Notes: generated by a model not told the origin, from the sequence alone. DNA of 38,032 bases from a virus (IMGVR_UViG_3300037674_000751:1-38032); one strand, 5' to 3'. Counted from the stretch's first letter, positions 1 to 30,950 are shown. A program made the numbers and translations.

Positions 1-1614
1 GTAGATAATAAAGGTGATGCTTGGATTGAATCAAAAGGTAAGAAGTATTCACCATCACAAATATCTGCTTTTACTTTACAAAAAATGAAAGAAACAGCAG
101 AAAAGTATTTAGGTCAAGAAGTTACCAAAGCAGTAATTACAGTACCTGCATACTTTAATGACGCACAACGTCAAGCAACAAAAGACGCAGGTAAAATTGC
201 AGGACTTGAAGTTGAACGTATTGTTAACGAACCAACTGCGGCCGCACTTGCTTATGGATTAGACAAAAAAGCAGACCAAAAAATTGCTGTATACGACTTA
301 GGTGGTGGTACATTTGACGTATCTATCTTAGAAACTGGCGAAAGTGTATTTGAAGTTAAATCAACTAATGGTGACACATCATTAGGTGGTGAAGACTTTG
401 ATAAAGTTTTAATTAATTACCTCGCAAGTGAATTTAAGAAAGACCAAGGCGTTGATTTAATGAATGACAAACTTGTTATTCAAAGACTAAAAGAAGCGGC
501 AGAAAAGGCAAAGATTGAACTGTCTTCTACTATAGAAACAGAAGTTAATCTTCCATTTATAACTGCTGACAAATCAGGACCTAAACACTTAAACATAAAA
601 ATTACAAGAGCCAAGTACGAATCACTAGTTGAGAAACTAATTGCAAGAACACTTGCTCCTTGTAAAACTGCACTAAAGGATTCAGGTTATAAAGCTAGTG
701 ATATCGACGAAGTAGTACTTGTTGGTGGTATGACTAGAATGCCTAAGGTACAAGAAACTGTTAAAAACTTCTTTGGTAAAGAACCTCACAAAGGTGTTAA
801 CCCAGATGAAGTTGTTGCTCTTGGAGCCGCAATTCAGGCTGGTGTATTACAAGGTGATGTTAAAGATGTGTTACTATTAGACGTAACTCCTTTATCACTT
901 GGTATTGAAACACTAGGTGGTGTAGCTACAAAACTTATTGATAAGAACACAACAATACCTACAAAGAAAAGCCAAACGTTTTCTACTGCTGATAATAATC
1001 AAGCGGCAGTTACAATTAAAGTTGTACAAGGTGAACGTGAAATGGCCGCTGACAATAAACTATTAGGAAATTTTGATCTAGTAGGAATTCCGCCAGCACC
1101 AAGAGGTATACCACAAATTGAAGTTACTTTTGATATTGATGCAAATGGAATAGTAAATGTTTCAGCAAAAGATAAAGGAACAGGCAAAGAACAGTCTATC
1201 CAAATTCAAGCATCAGGTGGATTAAGTGATTCTGAAATTGATAATATGGTTAAAGAAGCTGACGCTAATAAAGAAGCTGATAAAAAGAAACGTGATGAAG
1301 TCGATGCTCGTAATAATGCAGATGGGCTTATTCATGCTACTGAGAAGTCATTAGAAGAACATGGTGACAAAGTAACAGCTGAAGACAAAGAAGCTATACA
1401 AACAGCTCTAAGAAGCTTACAGGACGCCTTAAAAGAAGGTACTGATGTTGAAACAATTAAACGAAAAACACAGGATCTAAGTCAAGCGGCTATGAAGCTA
1501 GGTGAAGCTATATATAAAAGTCAACAAGAAGAAACCAAAGAAGAACAACCAGCAACCGACGATAAAAAAGACGATATTGTTGATGCAGAATTTGAAGAAG
1601 TCGATAAGAAGTAA
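1..1614 (+). CDS. dnaK: Chaperone DnaK (Hsp70), 5' end cut off by window edge
   Basis: Reading is open from base 1 and 537 residues are visible; about 100 N-terminal residues (the first part of the ATPase domain) lie outside. Visible are the phosphate-binding motif [13 protein letters not shown] (bases 292-330), the adenosine motif VGGMTRMPK (about 721-747), the interdomain linker DVLLLD (about 865-885), a full substrate-binding domain and lid, and the conserved acidic end [10 protein letters not shown]. Hsp70 uses ATP to bind and release hydrophobic peptides with DnaJ and GrpE; neither partner gene is visible. The gene seems intact, not a fragment. It is followed 33 nt later by clpS and the bilin genes, so it is probably phage-borne, since no flanking bacterial genes are seen. 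Identification of the family is certain; its role in infection is inferred. Confidence 0.95.
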
Positions 1615-1647: not shown

Positions 1648-1956
1648 ATGATAAGTAATGTTATGGACGTAGAGATTGACGAAAAAATTAAGCAAAAGAT
1701 TGTTGAGCCCGACTTATATAAAGTTATTTTTCTAAATGACAATGCAACTCCGATGGAGTTCGTTATTGACGTGCTCATTTCAATCTTTAAACACTCTGAT
1801 ACTACTGCACGTGACTTAACGGTTAAGATACACGAAGAAGGGTCAGCTGTTGTTGGTGTATATTCCTTTGAAATTGCAGAACAAAAAGGAGTTGAAGCTA
1901 CCAATTTGAGTCGTTCTCATGGATTTCCGCTCCAGATTAAAGTGGAGAAAGAATGA
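1648..1956 (+). CDS. clpS: ClpS, N-end-rule adaptor of the Clp protease
   Basis: A 102-residue ClpS. The core LYKVIFLNDNATPMEFVIDV (residues 23-42) matches the E. coli motif YKVILVNDDYTPMEFVIDV. Known N-degron contacts are retained: Asn30 and Asp31 (E. coli N34, D35), the gatekeeper Met36 (M40) and His62 (H66); E. coli D36 is Asn32 here. A ~22-residue N-terminal extension, which in ClpS contacts ClpA, is present. I chose ATG 1648 with AGGAG at 1636-1640 over the in-frame TTG at 1645. ClpS delivers proteins with bulky hydrophobic N-termini to ClpAP. The gene overlaps the heme oxygenase start by 4 nt, implying translational coupling. A ClpP gene lies at 8429; no ClpA is in the window, so host ClpA would be the partner. 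Confidence 0.93.
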   Translation: MISNVMDVEIDEKIKQKIVEPDLYKVIFLNDNATPMEFVIDVLISIFKHSDTTARDLTVKIHEEGSAVVGVYSFEIAEQKGVEATNLSRSHGFPLQIKVEKE

Positions 1957-2498
1957 GTTTAAAAGAATTAACCAAAAGTGTTCACAGAGATGCTGAACGT
2001 CAAGATTTTGTAAGTGTTTTAATGTCAGGAGAAATTGATCCTGAGCTTTATGCAACATTTTTAGCAAACCAACATCCAATGTATGATGTGTTAGAAGCAC
2101 TTGCAATGGCTAAAGGATTGTTAAACGGATTACCTGACATACGTAGGGCACCAGCTATTCAAGAAGATTTTAAAGAATTATGGACTAGCTCTGATCCTGC
2201 ACCGCAACTCGAAGTTACTAAAAAATACGTTGACTATCTCCGTGAGATAGCAGACGACGAAACAAGATTATTTGCACACGTATATACTCGCCATATGGGC
2301 GATTTAAGTGGAGGGCGAATGATTAGCAAAAAAGTGCCAGGCGAAGGACGATTATATCAATTTAAAGAGCCTGATACTTTAAAAGCAAAAATACGTGAAC
2401 GGCTAACTGATGACATGGCTGAAGAATCGAAAGTTTGTTTTGAATTTGCTACTCAAACATTTCGAGAGATGATGCCCTATGTCAAATCATCAAGTTAA
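1953..2498 (+). CDS. ho1: Heme oxygenase (biliverdin-forming)
   Basis: A 181-residue heme oxygenase. His11 in LTKSVHRDAE is the proximal heme ligand, and the distal helix motif GDLSGGR is at residues 116-122. The family opens heme with O2 and reductant to biliverdin IX-alpha, CO and Fe2+. Length is shorter than typical cyanobacterial HO1 (about 240 residues), with the loss mainly at the C-terminus, but the catalytic core is complete. The start overlaps clpS by 4 nt and the end overlaps the halogenase by 20 nt. A bilin reductase lies three genes downstream, so biliverdin is the likely intermediate. Cytosolic; electrons presumably come from ferredoxin. Confidence 0.94.
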   Translation: MSLKELTKSVHRDAERQDFVSVLMSGEIDPELYATFLANQHPMYDVLEALAMAKGLLNGLPDIRRAPAIQEDFKELWTSSDPAPQLEVTKKYVDYLREIADDETRLFAHVYTRHMGDLSGGRMISKKVPGEGRLYQFKEPDTLKAKIRERLTDDMAEESKVCFEFATQTFREMMPYVKSSS

Positions 2499-3993
2499 AT
2501 CAATATGTATAGCAGGTGGTGGTTCAGCAGGATGGCTAACAGCCGCCTATGCATTACGTATACTACCATCTGATATAAACATCACACTAGTTGAAAGTCC
2601 TAATATTCCAATCATTGGAGTAGGCGAAGCAACACTATTAGGATTTGATAAATTTCTTAGTAAAGAATGTAATATTCCTTTTGAACTATGGACAAAAGAA
2701 TGTGATGTTACAATTAAACTAGGAACAAAATTTACTGACTGGTACGGAGACGGCTTAGATATATGGGAACCTTTCTTAGTACCTACAATTTCACATAACG
2801 ATTATCATTTTGATATACTTGATTTAACTCTTAAAGCTAAAATTGTCAAACCAGACTTTTATTCAACGTGTTCAAGTTGGTATGAAATTAGTGTAGAAGA
2901 TCAAAAAATTCCTTCCACAGCATCATTAAATGGTCCTGGCTCAGGGGATCACGAAGTAGCTTACAATTTAGATGCAATAAAACTAGCAAACTTTTTAAGT
3001 AGGTGGTGTAACGAAAAGTATCCCCAACTAACTCATATTAAAAAACATATAGATAAGCCTGTTGTTAAAGATGGAAACATAGACCATTTAATACTACAAG
3101 ACGGCAGTACTATTCATGCTGATGTGTTTATAGATTGTACTGGATTTAAAAAACTATTATCAAATGCAATAGGAGGAAGTGACTGGCGTGACCATAGTGA
3201 TATGCTATATGTTAATTCAGCAGTTGCTAGTCAAATTAATTACAAAAACGACGAAGAACCTCAACACCCATACGTAGACGCTACTGCTCATGACTTAGGT
3301 TGGATTTGGAAAACTCCTATTAAAGACAGAATAGGTAGTGGGTTATGTTATAACAATACGATTACAACAAAACAAGAAGCCGAAGATGCCTTTGTACAAC
3401 ATTGGGGTAAAGATAGATTAAGAACAGGCGAATTTAATCACATAAAATTTACTCCAGAGTATAATGCAAAAAATTGGCGGGGCAATGTTATTCCAGTAGG
3501 ATTGTCTAGTGGATTTGTTGAACCTTTAGAATCATCTGGTATAGCTTTAATGGTTAATAGTATGGCTCCAATTGGAGATTTTTTAATACGTGGAGAATAT
3601 ACAGACGCCGATAGAGAAGACTATAATGAAAGACTTACATTTGTTTATCAAAATACAATGGACTTTATGGGATTACATTATTTTAATAATCCACGAACAG
3701 GACCTTTCTGGAAGCTAGTTGAAGAAAAATATAATTCTACAGAATCTTTATTTGATTTAGTTAAAGGATTTAAATTAATTAGCAACACATCATTCCAACA
3801 ACAACACTTCCCTAGAGATACCGGACTTTATCATGAATACAATTGGAAATTATGGGCATACACATCTGGGATAGGCACTATGACTGGAGAGATGAGTGAA
3901 GAAGATGCACTAGCACATATTAACTCAATAAAAGATCACGATAACGAAGTATCTTATCCTGGAGTAAAAAATAGAGATTGGTCAAATAGATGA
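2479..3993 (+). CDS. Flavin-dependent tryptophan-halogenase-like enzyme
   Basis: A 504-residue FAD-dependent halogenase of the PrnA/RebH type. The FAD motif GGGSAGW is at residues 13-19 and GVGEAT at 47-52. The segment ECDVTIKLGTKFTDW (about 74-88) aligns without gaps to the PrnA/RebH region carrying the catalytic lysine, and both lysines (80 and 84) are kept. GWIWKTP (about 274-280) corresponds to the halogenase signature WxWxIP with Ile replaced by Thr. GFVEPLESSG (about 345-354) holds the Glu-Ser pair that corresponds to PrnA E346/S347. Family chemistry is FADH2 + O2 + halide giving HOX, guided to an electron-rich ring. Substrate is unknown. Cyanophage VirX1 is a known viral relative. Sits between heme oxygenase and nitrilase, overlapping both. 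Confidence 0.9.
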   Translation: MSNHQVKSICIAGGGSAGWLTAAYALRILPSDINITLVESPNIPIIGVGEATLLGFDKFLSKECNIPFELWTKECDVTIKLGTKFTDWYGDGLDIWEPFLVPTISHNDYHFDILDLTLKAKIVKPDFYSTCSSWYEISVEDQKIPSTASLNGPGSGDHEVAYNLDAIKLANFLSRWCNEKYPQLTHIKKHIDKPVVKDGNIDHLILQDGSTIHADVFIDCTGFKKLLSNAIGGSDWRDHSDMLYVNSAVASQINYKNDEEPQHPYVDATAHDLGWIWKTPIKDRIGSGLCYNNTITTKQEAEDAFVQHWGKDRLRTGEFNHIKFTPEYNAKNWRGNVIPVGLSSGFVEPLESSGIALMVNSMAPIGDFLIRGEYTDADREDYNERLTFVYQNTMDFMGLHYFNNPRTGPFWKLVEEKYNSTESLFDLVKGFKLISNTSFQQQHFPRDTGLYHEYNWKLWAYTSGIGTMTGEMSEEDALAHINSIKDHDNEVSYPGVKNRDWSNR

Positions 3994-4763
3994 GATTAGC
4001 CGGAGCACAAATACCTGTTTCTAAAGATGTTGAGAAAAATGTCGAAACTATAAAACACGCAATTGATTGGGCTACAGATAACGAGTGTGATTTTCTTGTA
4101 ACGCCTGAAGGTTCTTTAAGTGGATATCTTCCAGGGTTTAATATTGAAGAAACTATTAAAGGACTTGCTGACATCGAAGAATATGCTAAAGAAAAAAGTA
4201 TGGGGTTATGTTTAGGAACATTATGGCTTGATAAAGAAGACCAAGGTGATATTAGAAGAAATCAAATTAGATTTTATGATAAAGAAGGTGTATTTTTAGG
4301 CCGTGCTAATAAAACACATGGTGTTAATCATGATGAAACTTTTTTAATGAATGATATTGATAAAGAAGGTATTAGAATTTTCTCACTACTAACTCCACCT
4401 GGTGGTACAGGTCAACAGTATCTTAATGCAGTTGGATTAATATGTAATGATATGTGGCCACACTATGCTAGTAAAAGTATACCTCATTTAGCTGAATTGG
4501 CAGGAGCAACAATTTTAATCCATAGTTCAAATGGTGCTAGAGGAAATGACAAAGATAAAGTATATAATACATGGCACGATGCCAATTTAAAAATGATAAG
4601 TCATATTACACGAATTCCTATTATAACTGTGGATAATATATATCATATAAACGGCGAATATTATGACGGACCTACAAGTAGTGAAAGCGGTGTTGTTATA
4701 GACGGCGAATGGGTAACAGATGTTCCAAGAACAGGAACACAATATTTTTATTGGGATTTTTAA
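3990..4763 (+). CDS. Carbon-nitrogen hydrolase (nitrilase superfamily)
   Basis: A 257-residue nitrilase-superfamily protein, about the usual single-domain length. The Glu-Lys-Cys triad is visible: Glu40 in TPEGSLSGY, Lys108 in GRANKTHG and Cys152 in GLICNDMW. Members hydrolyse or condense nitrile, amide, N-carbamoyl or acylated amine C-N bonds; the sequence does not tell which. The start ATG overlaps the halogenase stop by 4 nt (ATGA) and the stop lies 1 nt before the bilin reductase start, so it is translated as part of the same operon. Action on a pigment side chain, on a tryptophan-derived amide or nitrile, or on nitrogen salvage are all open possibilities. Confidence 0.88.
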   Translation: MRLAGAQIPVSKDVEKNVETIKHAIDWATDNECDFLVTPEGSLSGYLPGFNIEETIKGLADIEEYAKEKSMGLCLGTLWLDKEDQGDIRRNQIRFYDKEGVFLGRANKTHGVNHDETFLMNDIDKEGIRIFSLLTPPGGTGQQYLNAVGLICNDMWPHYASKSIPHLAELAGATILIHSSNGARGNDKDKVYNTWHDANLKMISHITRIPIITVDNIYHINGEYYDGPTSSESGVVIDGEWVTDVPRTGTQYFYWDF

Positions 4764-4764
4764 T

Positions 4765-5460
4765 ATGAGCGTACTATGGAATAAACTAATACAAAGTCAA
4801 GAAGATATTATTAATATTTTCGATAGTCAATGTAAAGAAATACAAGAACCAGGTATGGATCATTTTAATCAGCCCGACGGAGGTTGGATTAATAGAGTAT
4901 GGGCTAATGATAATATACGTAGAGCTCATATTGACGTAGTAGATGCACGTGAGTCAAAAGGTCTTTGGATGATGCACGTATGCTGTTTTCCTGTATTAAA
5001 TAATGACGGCCCTATATATGGATTTGATGTTATCTCTGGTAAGAACAAAATGACTGGGGCCTTTCATGACTTTTCAGCTTCTTCTGGTGGCGCAGATCAT
5101 CCATTAGTAGAGTGGTTTGAAAACGAAGTTAAAGAATTTATTCCAAGCAAAAGACGTGAATTACCTCAATGGGCATTAAACATCTTTACAGATAGTTTTA
5201 TTGCCGCAGGTAATGTTCAAGATGACGAAGAAGCTACAGCTATAATAGACCTAGCAGTAAATAATCTAAAAGTATACTTTGAAAGCATAGGGCAATATGC
5301 GGGCATGGGCGATCGTGAGCTTACAATAGCATCACAAAATTATTACTGTGATAATCAGCAACAAAACCCACACACACCACGAGTAATGACTAGTTTAGGC
5401 CTTAACGAAGCTGATGTGCAAAAGTTTTGTACGGATATGCTCTTCCCTAAAATAGTATAA
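4765..5460 (+). CDS. Ferredoxin-dependent bilin reductase (PcyA/PcyX/PebS family)
   Basis: A 231-residue protein recognisable as an FDBR (HY2 family). PIYGFDVISG (83-92) matches PcyA PLFGCDIVAG, with Asp88 equal to catalytic D105. MMHVCCF holds His71, equal to H88; RAHIDV holds His55, equal to H74. RRELPQW and the C-terminal NYYCDNQQQN also match PcyA. PcyA Glu76 is replaced by Asp57. The start is ATG 4765; an in-frame ATG at 4720 lies inside the nitrilase gene and is less likely. FDBRs reduce biliverdin with ferredoxin electrons to phycobilins. Viral members include PebS of cyanophage P-SSM2 and the metagenomic PcyX, both giving phycoerythrobilin. Resemblance to PcyA plus the phage context points to PcyX, but this needs a tree. 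Confidence 0.88.
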   Translation: MSVLWNKLIQSQEDIINIFDSQCKEIQEPGMDHFNQPDGGWINRVWANDNIRRAHIDVVDARESKGLWMMHVCCFPVLNNDGPIYGFDVISGKNKMTGAFHDFSASSGGADHPLVEWFENEVKEFIPSKRRELPQWALNIFTDSFIAAGNVQDDEEATAIIDLAVNNLKVYFESIGQYAGMGDRELTIASQNYYCDNQQQNPHTPRVMTSLGLNEADVQKFCTDMLFPKIV

Positions 5461-8428: not shown

Positions 8429-8995
8429 ATGAGCACCAAAAAGATAGAAGATTTTACAGCCGCGGATCGTATCGATATAAAGCTTCTCGAGAGCAACTGT
8501 CATTACCTGTCAGGTGAACTTTGCGAGGAAAATATTGGTAATGCGATCAAATGGATTCTCTTCGAGAATCTAGAGAAAAAACCCAAAAAGACTTTAACTC
8601 TTTACGTCAACTCAGTTGGTGGTGACTTATACGAATCCTTTGGACTTATTGATATTATGCGTGATTCTTATCATCATATATCTACTATCGGTATTGGTGC
8701 TGTGATGAGTGCAGGACTTCTTGTTTTTGCCGCTGGCTCCCCAGGCAAAAGATATATTGGTAAAAATACAGGAATTATGAATCACCAACATAGTGATTCA
8801 GTTGATGCTAAAATGCATGATATGAAAGCCCAGATGAAAGAAAATGCTAATTGTGAGCAAAGATGTTTCCAAATTCTACGTGACGCAACTGGATTTTCAT
8901 TAGCAGATGTTCGTAAGAAATTTAATAATCCTTCAGATCAATACTTTACAGCTAAACAAATGGTAGACCTTAAGTTAGCTGATCAAATTTTATAG
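8429..8995 (+). CDS. clpP: ClpP-like serine protease
   Basis: 188 residues of the ClpP (S14) family. The triad is complete: Ser94 in GAVMSAG, His119 in IMNHQHSD (25 residues apart, as in E. coli ClpP S97/H122) and Asp170 in SDQYFTA. LYVNSVGGDLYESFGLID matches the ClpP substrate-groove strand. The usual N-terminal propeptide is not evident. It lies under a late-type promoter, unlike most host-takeover genes, so it may act in virion maturation (some phage head proteases are ClpP-like) or change host Clp activity late. ClpS at 1648 is the other Clp gene; no Clp ATPase is in the window. Confidence 0.9.
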   Translation: MSTKKIEDFTAADRIDIKLLESNCHYLSGELCEENIGNAIKWILFENLEKKPKKTLTLYVNSVGGDLYESFGLIDIMRDSYHHISTIGIGAVMSAGLLVFAAGSPGKRYIGKNTGIMNHQHSDSVDAKMHDMKAQMKENANCEQRCFQILRDATGFSLADVRKKFNNPSDQYFTAKQMVDLKLADQIL

Positions 8996-25023: not shown

Positions 25024-25608
25024 ATGCTAGTGATTGGCAACGGCGAGAGTAGAAAAGATATAGATATCAATATATGTGGCGATATAAAGGTTGGTTGCAA
25101 CGCGATTTTTAGAGACTTTTATGTAAACCACTTAATTTGTTGCGATCGTCGTATGGTTATTGAAGCACAAAAAGAACATAACTATGGTGCCATATATACT
25201 AGAGCCGATTGGATAGATCAATTTAAATTATGTGGGCTAGTTCCACAACTTCCATATAAAGGCAATACAAAACTTGACGATCCATGGCATTGGGGTAGTG
25301 GACCTTATGCAGTATTATTAGGAACAGTAATAGCTACTAAAGAGAGTGAAACCCCTGAAATACATATGATTGGGTTTGATTTAGATACCGGACTTTATAA
25401 TAACATATATAAAGGCACAGAGAATTATAACGATGTAGATTCAAGGCCAGTAGATCCTAGTTATTGGATATATCAAATTGATAAAGTATTTGAAAATTTT
25501 CCTGAAGCTAATTTTACCTATTATAATAATAAGCCATGGCCAACAGAGCAAAAAAATGTATGTAACAAAATGTTAATTGAATTTGAGATAGCTAATGAGA
25601 CCGCCTGA
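25024..25608 (+). CDS. Conserved hypothetical protein, 194 aa (possible nucleotide-binding fold)
   Basis: Not firmly recognised. LVIGNGESRKDIDINICG at the start, with a Rossmann-like beta-alpha start and a GNGES loop, then KVGCNAIFRDF and LICCDRRMV (about residues 35-50). This resembles the loop of DUF115-like or transferase proteins, but I cannot fix the family. It lies next to oxygenases and a glycosyltransferase, so a surface- or base-modifying role is possible. It has no visible Shine-Dalgarno and starts 5 nt after a late octamer. Its end overlaps the next gene by 14 nt. Confidence 0.6.
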   Translation: MLVIGNGESRKDIDINICGDIKVGCNAIFRDFYVNHLICCDRRMVIEAQKEHNYGAIYTRADWIDQFKLCGLVPQLPYKGNTKLDDPWHWGSGPYAVLLGTVIATKESETPEIHMIGFDLDTGLYNNIYKGTENYNDVDSRPVDPSYWIYQIDKVFENFPEANFTYYNNKPWPTEQKNVCNKMLIEFEIANETA

Positions 25609-26233
25609 ACCACAACACTTTGCTACATTTCCAACACTAGTAAGCATATGGAATCTTAAAGACCACGGGTGTGAAAAAACTATAATTGAGATGATCGAAA
25701 CCTGGCCTGATGTTACCAAACATAGATTAGTTAAAGGTGGAGATAGTAGTTACATTACTGGTGACGAACAATTTTTAAGTGATAAACGATTAAGTGACTT
25801 ATGGAAAACAATACAATCTTGCTGTGATACATATACTGAAGAAGCAGGAATTGATTATGCACTTATTTCAACAAGTTGGTTTAATACTTTAGGACAAGGC
25901 GGAACTGTACAATCACACAGACACGAACGAAGTGTTGTTAGTGGAGCATACTATCCATATGCTGAAGAAGGAAGTAATCCATTAATGCTTGAAAGTCCAT
26001 TACAACCTTTACGAATGAATGATTGTATAATAAAACCAACAAACTTTAATCGCTATGATATGGATGTGCCAGTACGTTCAGGAATGCTGGTTATCTTTCC
26101 TAGTTGGTTAAAACATTATGTTGAACCCAATGATAGTAAAAAAAGATACGTAGTAAGTTTTAATACAATAAGACACGCAGACAAAGGTTACATAAAAACA
26201 GTAAAAGATTATAGAATAGAAAAACATGAGTAA
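25595..26233 (+). CDS. 2OG-Fe(II) oxygenase-like protein, copy 1
   Basis: 212 residues. SHRHERSVVSGAYYPY (His108, His110) and FPSWLKHYVEPND...KKRYVVSFN (His174, Arg184) match the 2OG-FeII_Oxy_5 type of putative oxygenases (HxH, SGxYY, FPSWLxH, R-S-FN). Paralogue of the next gene: same start FATFPTLVSIWNLKDH versus LLFPTLVQVYNLEDH. It overlaps both neighbours (14 nt and 8 nt). Substrate unknown; the Fe site pattern and gene pairing suggest an enzyme pair. Confidence 0.8.
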   Translation: MRPPEPQHFATFPTLVSIWNLKDHGCEKTIIEMIETWPDVTKHRLVKGGDSSYITGDEQFLSDKRLSDLWKTIQSCCDTYTEEAGIDYALISTSWFNTLGQGGTVQSHRHERSVVSGAYYPYAEEGSNPLMLESPLQPLRMNDCIIKPTNFNRYDMDVPVRSGMLVIFPSWLKHYVEPNDSKKRYVVSFNTIRHADKGYIKTVKDYRIEKHE

Positions 26234-26876
26234 AGCAACGATACCAGAAGGCCAATTCCGTAAAGCTGACTATTTGTTATTTCCAACATTAGTTCAGGTC
26301 TATAATTTAGAAGATCATCCTGATCAGCAATTAGTAATTGATACTATTGATAATTTCACTAATGACAAATTAATGGAATGGCCTGATGACATTGGTAAAG
26401 GTAAAACTAGTAGTACCTATTTTGATGTTGTAAGTAAAACTCATAAAGCGGCAAATTTTTTAGATCAAAAAGAATTTAAACTAATAAAACAAGACATTCA
26501 AAATTGTGTAGATGAATATTGTACAACTAGTGGATTACGCCCAGTTAAAATTGCAAAAAGTTGGTTTAATATTCAAGAAGAAAAAGGGCACGTAAACGAA
26601 CATAGACATGAATTGAGTATTGTAAGTGGGGCATATTATCCTTACTGCGATAAAGATAGTGCTCCAATAGTTTTTACAAGTCCAATCCTAGGACCAAAAA
26701 TGGCAGAGATTCATAGTGCTGGAACAGAATTTACAGCCGACAAAATGGATTTTATTCCTAGAACAGGAGTACTCGTTTTGTTCCCTAGTTGGTTGTATCA
26801 TAGAAGTTTACATAATAAAACCAAAAAACGTTTAACCATTAGTTTCAATACACACCATATTGAGGTTGACAGGTGA
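26226..26876 (+). CDS. 2OG-Fe(II) oxygenase-like protein, copy 2
   Basis: 216 residues, parallel to copy 1: NEHRHELSIVSGAYYPY and FPSWLYHRSLHNKTKKRL. The first segment (about residues 15-100) also matches copy 1, so the pair came from a tandem duplication followed by divergence. All core residues are kept in both. The -35 box of the PTPS promoter lies in its last codons. Same operon as copy 1 (8-nt overlap). Confidence 0.8.
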   Translation: MSKATIPEGQFRKADYLLFPTLVQVYNLEDHPDQQLVIDTIDNFTNDKLMEWPDDIGKGKTSSTYFDVVSKTHKAANFLDQKEFKLIKQDIQNCVDEYCTTSGLRPVKIAKSWFNIQEEKGHVNEHRHELSIVSGAYYPYCDKDSAPIVFTSPILGPKMAEIHSAGTEFTADKMDFIPRTGVLVLFPSWLYHRSLHNKTKKRLTISFNTHHIEVDR

Positions 26877-26894
26877 AGACAAATAATATATAAT
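26866..26894 (+). promoter_or_regulatory. Sigma-70 promoter (TTGACA-17-TATAAT)
   Basis: Consensus in both boxes (26866-26871 and 26889-26894), 17-bp spacing, GG before -35, with the -35 inside the previous gene. It precedes the PTPS-like gene with about 60 nt leader. Confidence 0.88.
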
Positions 26895-26960
26895 AATATA
26901 GAAATGAGGACTACAACGTCGACCCTCTTTAAATACTCCGCCGTTAAAAAGGAGAAAAGA

Positions 26961-27404
26961 ATGGTACACAAAAGTACAAAAACTTATGGTAATGATAGAG
27001 GTTTCAGTTGTGCGTTCAGACAGGCGTTAGCAGAAAGTCATTGTAATTTAATTCATGGTTATAGTTTAGGTTTCAGATTTGAATTTGAAGCATTTGAATT
27101 AGACGATAAGAATTGGGTTTACGATTTCGGAAACTGTGGCTGGATTAAACAATACCTAGAAGATAACTTCGATCATAAAATAGCTGTTGATAAAGCAGAT
27201 CCTAATTTAAGCGATTTTGTAGCACTAGAAGAAAAAGGTCTTGCAAAAGTTATTCAAATGGATGGCGTTGGTTGTGAAAAATTTGCAGAACACGTTTACA
27301 ATTACATATCACCAATTATCGATGAAGACACAGGAGGTCGTGTAAGACTTTCTAGTGTTGAAGTTTTTGAACACGGTAGTAATAGTGCAAAATTGGAAAG
27401 ATAA
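26961..27404 (+). CDS. PTPS/QueD-like protein with altered zinc site
   Basis: 147 residues from ATG 26961 with GGAG at 26951-26954; an in-frame ATG at 26904 has no such site. The fold is 6-pyruvoyl-tetrahydropterin synthase / QueD: CNLIHGYSLGF (Cys28, His32), VYDFGN, FDHKIAVD (catalytic-type His72) and VEVFEHGS (Glu). But the zinc His of FDAAHR is Phe19 here and HGH is HGY (Tyr34), so two of three usual zinc ligands are missing. QueD makes a precursor of queuosine and 7-deazaguanines; this type may have another ligand or job. It overlaps the next gene by 1 nt. No other queuosine gene is in the window. Confidence 0.78.
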   Translation: MVHKSTKTYGNDRGFSCAFRQALAESHCNLIHGYSLGFRFEFEAFELDDKNWVYDFGNCGWIKQYLEDNFDHKIAVDKADPNLSDFVALEEKGLAKVIQMDGVGCEKFAEHVYNYISPIIDEDTGGRVRLSSVEVFEHGSNSAKLER

Positions 27405-27931
27405 TGCGTGAAAAATTTTGGGAAGAACTAAACGAAGCTCGTAGCAAAAACGAAGTCAAACTTTGGAAAGAAATATTTCCTGAAGCAGACACTATTAACT
27501 TTGACACATTATTAGCTCATAACCAATGGCAATCTAGAATTACTAATCAGGATATTGTAATGGATCAATATTCAAGCAATCTTCCAAATGTTCAAAGTAA
27601 TAGTAATGTTAAACCATTTTATACAGAATTCGTAACAAACTATAAGATAATTGATACAGAATCAAATATTAATTGTAGTTTCTTTTGGAGCTTTTCGGAT
27701 CGTCACCATTCAATTTTTATGCATCGAGATCCTGAAACTGTTTTATTAATACAAGGGTGTGGGCAAGTAGCTTATGTATTATCAACAGAAGATGGTAGTA
27801 ACAATAGAATAATTCATGTAAAAACTGGTGACGCATTATTGCTTCCAAAATTGACGCCTCATAAATCCATTCCAATGGAGCCAAGGGTTACATTAAGTAT
27901 TGGAGCAATACCTTCTAAGCCAGCGTTGTAA
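27404..27931 (+). CDS. Cupin-like Fe(II)/2OG oxygenase, 175 aa
   Basis: 175 residues. FMHRDPETVL (His107, Asp109), TPHKSIPMEPR (His153, Arg161) and KTGDALLLPKLTPH form the HxD...H...R pattern of JmjC/cupin-like 2OG enzymes. It starts on the last base of the PTPS-like gene, and the GTG of the glycosyltransferase follows 10 nt later. Candidate hydroxylase acting on a nucleobase, a sugar or a protein; the neighbours do not decide. Confidence 0.75.
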   Translation: MREKFWEELNEARSKNEVKLWKEIFPEADTINFDTLLAHNQWQSRITNQDIVMDQYSSNLPNVQSNSNVKPFYTEFVTNYKIIDTESNINCSFFWSFSDRHHSIFMHRDPETVLLIQGCGQVAYVLSTEDGSNNRIIHVKTGDALLLPKLTPHKSIPMEPRVTLSIGAIPSKPAL

Positions 27932-30572: not shown

Positions 30573-30598
30573 AATTACATTAGGATTTTAGACATATT

Positions 30599-30606
30599 GA
30601 TAAATA
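30599..30606 (+). promoter_or_regulatory. Late promoter octamer GATAAATA
   Basis: Seven of eight matches, 20 nt before the IscA-like ATG; the leader has room for GGA (30618-30620). Lies 26 bp from the divergent octamer at 30565. Confidence 0.62.
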
Positions 30607-30626
30607 CAATTAACAAAGGAACTAAT

Positions 30627-30950
30627 ATGGCAATAGTAACATTGACAGAATCAGCAATAGACCAGATGAATTATATGCTGGCCGCTAAGAATAAACCAGT
30701 TGTACGCCTATCTATGAAGGGTGGCGGATGTGCAGGAATGCAATATGACTGGACTATGTCAGATGCTGTAGAAGATAAAGACGAAGTAATTAACTTGAAA
30801 AAAGGTAAATTTGCAATTGACTCATTAAGTCAAATGTACTTAATGGGTTCAACAATTAATTATAAAGAAGAATTATTTGGATCATTTTTTGATATCACTA
30901 ATCCAGCAACAAAAAATAGTTGCGGATGTGGTGAATCCGTAGGATTTTAA
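30627..30950 (+). CDS. A-type Fe-S cluster carrier (IscA/ErpA/HesB-like)
   Basis: 107 residues from ATG 30627; an ATG at 30597 lies before the promoter. Cys35 in GGGCAGMQYDW and Cys99-Gly-Cys101 in SCGCGESVGF are the three conserved cluster ligands. The family carries Fe-S clusters or iron. Phages encode similar proteins, and in some T4-like phages a HesB-like domain has been proposed as part of the tail. Here it is under a late octamer and 3 nt before the giant structural gene, so it may be a virion component. Function in the virus is inferred. Confidence 0.9.
   Translation: MAIVTLTESAIDQMNYMLAAKNKPVVRLSMKGGGCAGMQYDWTMSDAVEDKDEVINLKKGKFAIDSLSQMYLMGSTINYKEELFGSFFDITNPATKNSCGCGESVGF

Follow-up and report, generated by a model that had tools for sequence, protein, structure and literature searches.

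The DNA analysed here (the window, the whole of a 38,032-base linear virus record that is itself a fragment) carries a flavin-dependent halogenase gene between the genes for heme oxygenase and a phycobilin-forming reductase, a gene pair predicted to convert heme into the precursor of a pink pigment. Seen in one group of large uncultured ocean viruses, this placement of a halogenase between pigment genes suggests, short of proof, viral synthesis of a heme-derived pigment that bears a halogen. The heme-to-bilin route is already known and the inserts in the cassette are the new part, since phage hemO-pcyX cassettes yielding phycoerythrobilin have been published (PMC11480375; PMC13197396), while ClpS, the halogenase and the nitrilase are all absent from the main text of PMC11480375, which treats phage hemO-pcyX. 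A dedicated halogenase that tailors a compound of the bilin pathway is the best-supported reading of the arrangement, although we hold it tentatively, at a little short of an even chance, with substrate and product proposed from gene context.

Five genes on the plus strand make up the chain: clpS, for an N-degron adaptor (1648-1956; ClpS Pfam, 7.8e-27); hemO, for a heme oxygenase (1953-2498; Heme_oxygenase Pfam, 8e-21); the gene for the flavin-dependent halogenase (FDH, 2479-3993; Trp_halogenase Pfam, 6.3e-91); a gene for a nitrilase-superfamily C-N hydrolase (3990-4763; CN_hydrolase Pfam, 4.6e-11); and pcyX, for a ferredoxin-dependent bilin reductase (4765-5460 from its ATG; Fe_bilin_red Pfam, 2.5e-13). 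A TTG 3 bases ahead of the clpS ATG gives an alternative start at 1645, and the pcyX ORF, when called mechanically, reaches upstream to 4720. Successive genes overlap by 4, 20 and 4 nt, and pcyX starts after a single-base gap, so the ORF coordinates confirm the order and junctions that a preliminary description had given for 1648-5460; the viral setting that it assumed is likewise supported. When the same gene order was sought in other viral contigs, as that description had proposed, it was present in at least two: sister contig L002 repeats the full set of five with unchanged junctions (-4, -20, -4, +1), and L004 has the five-gene order of the window. Because L002 repeats both genes and junctions and L004 repeats the order, the chain is not due to chance. 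The -20 overlap of hemO and FDH also occurs in L003, L004 and L075-L077. Values of dN/dS between 0.08 and 0.32 indicate purifying selection on the cassette genes, several of whose junctions overlap.

Judged by sequence, the bilin reductase is PcyX, a member of the phycoerythrobilin-synthase clade whose activity is predicted from its family: its best PDB match is 5owg (PcyX_EBK42635; E-value 2.1e-81), compared with 9.2e-12 for the best PcyA. Residue D57, assigned by alignment to 5owg, is invariant across 58 distinct homologues and, if the numbering offset of the tagged 5owg chain is as we infer, corresponds to Asp55, a residue specific to PcyX (PMC11480375). When HemO is aligned to Synechocystis HO1, the two agree at the proximal histidine (H11, kept in 55 of 57 homologues) and at GDLSGG (116-121). 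From family membership, HemO would open heme to biliverdin and PcyX would reduce biliverdin to phycoerythrobilin. The earlier suggestion that the two form a heme-to-phycobilin pair is borne out by the identity of PcyX, and such a phage pair was already in print, a point that the preliminary description left unmentioned, as it did the constancy of ClpS in the cassette. Phage hemO-pcyX cassettes were reportedly described by Ledermann et al. in 2016.

The core in the window is a variant of the published hemO-pcyX cassette. In the cassettes of marine phages described by Wegner et al. 2024 (PMC11480375) HemO is linked to a PcyX-type reductase, as here, but the published pair is contiguous, whereas here it is split by the halogenase (and the nitrilase); the same paper describes hemO-pcyA/X-valaS cassettes, while here alaS lies elsewhere, in several related contigs. 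Pelagibacter phage Mosig EXVC030M (MT647606) also has hemO followed by pcyX, at 41% and 54% identity; it is T4-like, with gp23, has 2OG oxygenases upstream and no clpS beside hemO, and, unlike the window, gave no halogenase match in its genome. In several contigs (L069, L071, L073, L079 and L435) pcyX was seen without an adjoining hemO or clpS.

Relatives of the cassette were collected as at least about 143 jumbo-type PcyX contigs from three scans, together with L173 and the window, after removal of duplicate contig names; the first and third scans have 22 contigs in common. Among the matches listed, the first scan has 80 loci, 76 of them with clpS immediately 5' of hemO; of the 78 readable loci in the third, 73-74 have clpS 5' of hemO (73 immediately so), so that about 95% of the jumbo-type loci listed have clpS directly ahead of hemO; it was not found in any Mosig-type locus examined. 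What lies between hemO and pcyX varies: the interval may be empty or short, or hold small ORFs (69-94 aa), FDH, a nitrilase, a 2OG-Fe(II) oxygenase or a second heme oxygenase. In the window two genes separate hemO from pcyX, where most relatives have only short gaps or ORFs. FDH and nitrilase occur together in the window, L002 and L004, and nitrilase without FDH in L063, L081, L197, L450 and L451. A 2OG-Fe(II) oxygenase occupies the interval in L456 and accompanies a nitrilase in L173, while L005 (1129-4617) has a nitrilase, a second heme oxygenase and a 2OG-Fe(II) oxygenase ahead of pcyX. Two ORFs of ~305 aa each lie between hemO and pcyX in L065 (5936-7996); neither these nor the small ORF of L035 had a Pfam or PHROG match. 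The interval is an accessory slot, with clpS as the constant member upstream.

The halogenase of this slot belongs to a clade found in at least 23 contigs (the window, 19 from the first scan and 3 from the second), which is 53-79% identical to the window sequence, virus-only among the matches listed, and monophyletic with a support of 100. All 12 clade sequences compared have the GxGxxG and WxWxxP motifs and the catalytic Lys and Glu that mark flavin-dependent halogenases (PF04820), with GGGSAGW, K80, W275/W277 and E351/S352 invariant, and we therefore regard the protein as a predicted flavin-dependent halogenase with intact catalytic motifs. Since single-sequence queries with the halogenase and the nitrilase gave almost no matches, alignment queries were used instead. 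The AlphaFold model of the FDH is poor (pLDDT 65) and was kept out of substrate inference. The viral flavin-dependent halogenase VirX1 (PDB 6qgm) has motifs in common with the slot FDH; identity among the viral relatives is about one third, and the slot FDHs form a clade of their own. We take VirX1 to originate from cyanophage Syn10, in which the halogenase has no adjoining bilin genes.

FDH lies between hemO and pcyX in 23 of 23 clade contigs among the matches listed, so that the preliminary claim of a halogenase tied to bilin genes holds for this clade, none of whose listed members occurs apart from them. Around the other viral halogenases listed in the same scan (<=36% identity), neither hemO nor pcyX lies within 6 kb, and in a scan of prokaryote genomes (84,980 species) no listed match exceeded 33% identity to FDH. 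The collection scans each list the best 80 matches, and occurrence of FDH only in the slot holds for those. In the 13 whole virus records carrying the clade, FDH is present in single copy and in the slot only; relatives without a slot FDH have no halogenase, or distant copies in one contig only. Clade members occur in about 23 of 143 PcyX contigs among the matches listed, and because most lack a halogenase, the core pathway can evidently do without FDH. They occur with two separate PcyX clades, and at least two changes on the PcyX tree are needed to place FDH, either one gain with losses or transfer.

The C-N hydrolase is, on the strength of an intact triad (E40-K108-C152, invariant in six slot sequences) and a predicted fold, a member of the nitrilase superfamily: the model (pLDDT 81) resembles carbamoylases as well as N-carbamoylputrescine amidohydrolases, with sequence identities of 15-18%, and N-carbamoyl-D-amino acid and N-carbamoylputrescine amidohydrolases have fold and Glu-Lys-Cys triad in common with it. 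A sequence search of PDB gave no match for it. Most nitrilase relatives, among the matches listed, have no bilin genes nearby, and the slot nitrilases are nested among the non-bilin ones, so that for this gene the preliminary claim of a tie to the bilin genes fails. L003 has no nitrilase, yet the halogenases of L003 and L004 share 88% identity, a comparison that rules out the nitrilase as an obligate partner of the halogenase. The hydrolase is an optional, facultative member of the slot, which could act as a further tailoring enzyme or be unrelated. Elsewhere, viral halogenases and nitrilases often stand in tandem, in groups of two to four genes (L101-L163, L184-L243).

A virus-only FDH, probably co-translated with the pathway, would most likely halogenate a pathway compound, the candidates being biliverdin, dihydrobiliverdin and phycoerythrobilin. 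The fuller proposal is that in marine phages a dedicated FDH acts on biliverdin or phycoerythrobilin supplied by the adjoining HemO and PcyX, yielding an open-chain tetrapyrrole with halogen added, and that, as part of the same reading, 2OG oxygenases or nitrilases are alternative bilin-tailoring enzymes in sister phages; taken as a whole it is possible, though we would not rely on it. No halogenated bilin was found in the literature searched. Several observations count against bilin tailoring, among them this one and the lack of a halogenase in most PcyX contigs; in addition, FDH evolves faster than PcyX, no PF01613 flavin reductase was found in any of 28 virus records, and the slot takes up nitrilases and 2OG oxygenases as well as small ORFs, in the manner of an insertion hot spot.

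The last of these leads to the main rival of bilin tailoring, an accessory slot with shared transcription, permissive for metabolic genes, where the substrates of FDH and nitrilase would be host metabolites of no relation to bilins and transcription would be their one tie to the bilin genes. We consider this a substantial possibility, if still a minority one. The varied slot contents speak for it, from empty intervals to small ORFs, a second heme oxygenase and the 305-aa ORFs, as do the absence of the nitrilase from L003, its nesting among non-bilin nitrilases, and the commonness of viral halogenases and nitrilases, often in tandem, in other settings. A neutral slot, however, fails to explain why this FDH clade is found nowhere else among the matches listed; the named inserts are small-molecule enzymes of few kinds, and the slot junctions are mostly overlaps or a few bases. 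It also fails to explain a second FDH lineage beside hemO-pcyX in unrelated phages. This different lineage occurs on pelagiphage-type, Mosig-related contigs (including L400, L340, L375, L380 and L394): of the 45 T4-like loci whose upstream sequence exceeds 3 kb, 11 have such an FDH 0-4 kb ahead of hemO-pcyX, and in L400 (2875-5702) the FDH ends one base before hemO. The genes between FDH and hemO in T4-like loci include 2OG oxygenases, in which the region is rich, so this upstream region is an accessory hot spot too, and the argument from convergence is therefore weakened, yet not removed. A further live rival is linkage by descent: because the slot FDHs are all in related phages with similar flanks, the association of FDH with bilin genes may reflect common ancestry.

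Another alternative, iron and heme management, is about what the pathway is for and may hold alongside bilin tailoring. HemO would free heme iron for the many iron enzymes (2OG oxygenases, ribonucleotide reductase), PcyX would clear biliverdin, and FDH and nitrilase would help to dispose of or modify a by-product; neither signalling nor light would play a part. Taken together we find this unlikely. An iron role for phage hemO has been discussed (PMC11480375), neither a CpeT-family phycobilin lyase nor psbA was found in any of the 28 records, and the window is rich in 2OG oxygenases, which are also present in some slots and beside the Mosig-type cassette. Yet 8 of the 28 records encode 5-aminolevulinate synthase, which would feed heme synthesis and fits flux better than salvage, and reduction to phycoerythrobilin uses electrons in phages without a plant-type ferredoxin of their own (among the 28 records, Mosig only has one).

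An ordinary tryptophan/indole halogenase carried in parallel, an option in the preliminary description, is improbable, for although the nearest solved structures to FDH are tryptophan 6-halogenases with which it shares flavin-binding and catalytic motifs, its C-terminus is unlike those of Thal, RebH and PrnA and the cassette has no tryptophan pathway gene. FAD-binding and catalytic motifs are common to all four proteins over residues 1-430, whereas the C-terminal substrate region is not alignable: the profile alignment with PrnA stops at residue 435, the C-terminal 70-80 residues of FDH have no detectable similarity to the three enzymes, and the conserved C-terminal tryptophan-binding region of tryptophan halogenases was not recognised. 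The residues that hold tryptophan, which we take to be Tyr443/Tyr444, Glu450 and Trp455, lie past PrnA residue 435. Because the alignment ends before this region, tryptophan is not favoured as the FDH substrate.

ClpS, the constant member of the cassette, matches ClpS structures in PDB, and its N-degron pocket residues N30, D31, T34 and H62 are invariant in 55 distinct homologues, with M36 in 52. Pocket residues are in common with ClpS of E. coli and Agrobacterium; unlike these, the phage protein is phage-encoded and coupled to hemO. Full-length ClpA is present in 7 of 28 virus records, including most of the longest contigs (one copy in G007), and ClpP-like genes lie near the cassette. The one in the window (8429-8995, plus strand, outside the cassette; CLP_protease, 5.1e-26) has a ClpP-type protein as its best NCBIfam match, the head-maturation type being weaker, and is a possible partner of ClpS; the jumbo-type phages may have their own N-degron protease system of ClpA, ClpS and a ClpP-like protein. 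In plants, ClpS1 selects glutamyl-tRNA reductase, and a link between phage ClpS and turnover of tetrapyrrole enzymes is speculation. Upstream of clpS the window encodes DnaK (85-1614, plus strand, with its start missing at the window edge; HSP70, 3.1e-216, profile positions 121-598), as do L002-L005, L014, L027, L055, L068 and L078; many relatives that carry the halogenase have DnaK at this place. The chaperone at this position has apparently been exchanged, with DnaK in some lineages and an Hsp20-family protein in others (L063:5190-5657). Further along the window (25595-27928 and 30597-30950) are two 2OG-Fe(II) oxygenases, a 6-pyruvoyl-tetrahydropterin synthase homologue and an A-type iron-sulfur carrier.

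The owner of the cassette appears to be an uncultured group of large marine phages. Their size is suggested by one PcyX contig of 261,806 bp and by ClpS, whose matches in cultured phages come mainly from very large ones; a nucleotide search gave no close cultured phage. An identity as a T4-like marine myovirus (Kyanoviridae) was considered for the window phage and not adopted: the major capsid protein gp23, present in Mosig, was not found in 11 virus records (fragments, one of 148 kb), nor was Terminase_6N in the jumbo-type records, also fragments. Cyanobacteria are not indicated as host.

The constant presence of ClpS connects the cassette to protein turnover, and ClpA is also found in several of the longest relatives. 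If the bilin-tailoring reading is true, the product would be a pigment class not met in the literature searched, and the pathway would supply viral halogenases with a candidate for their native substrate. The finding bears on what phycobilins are for in phages whose hosts have no visible phycobilisomes.
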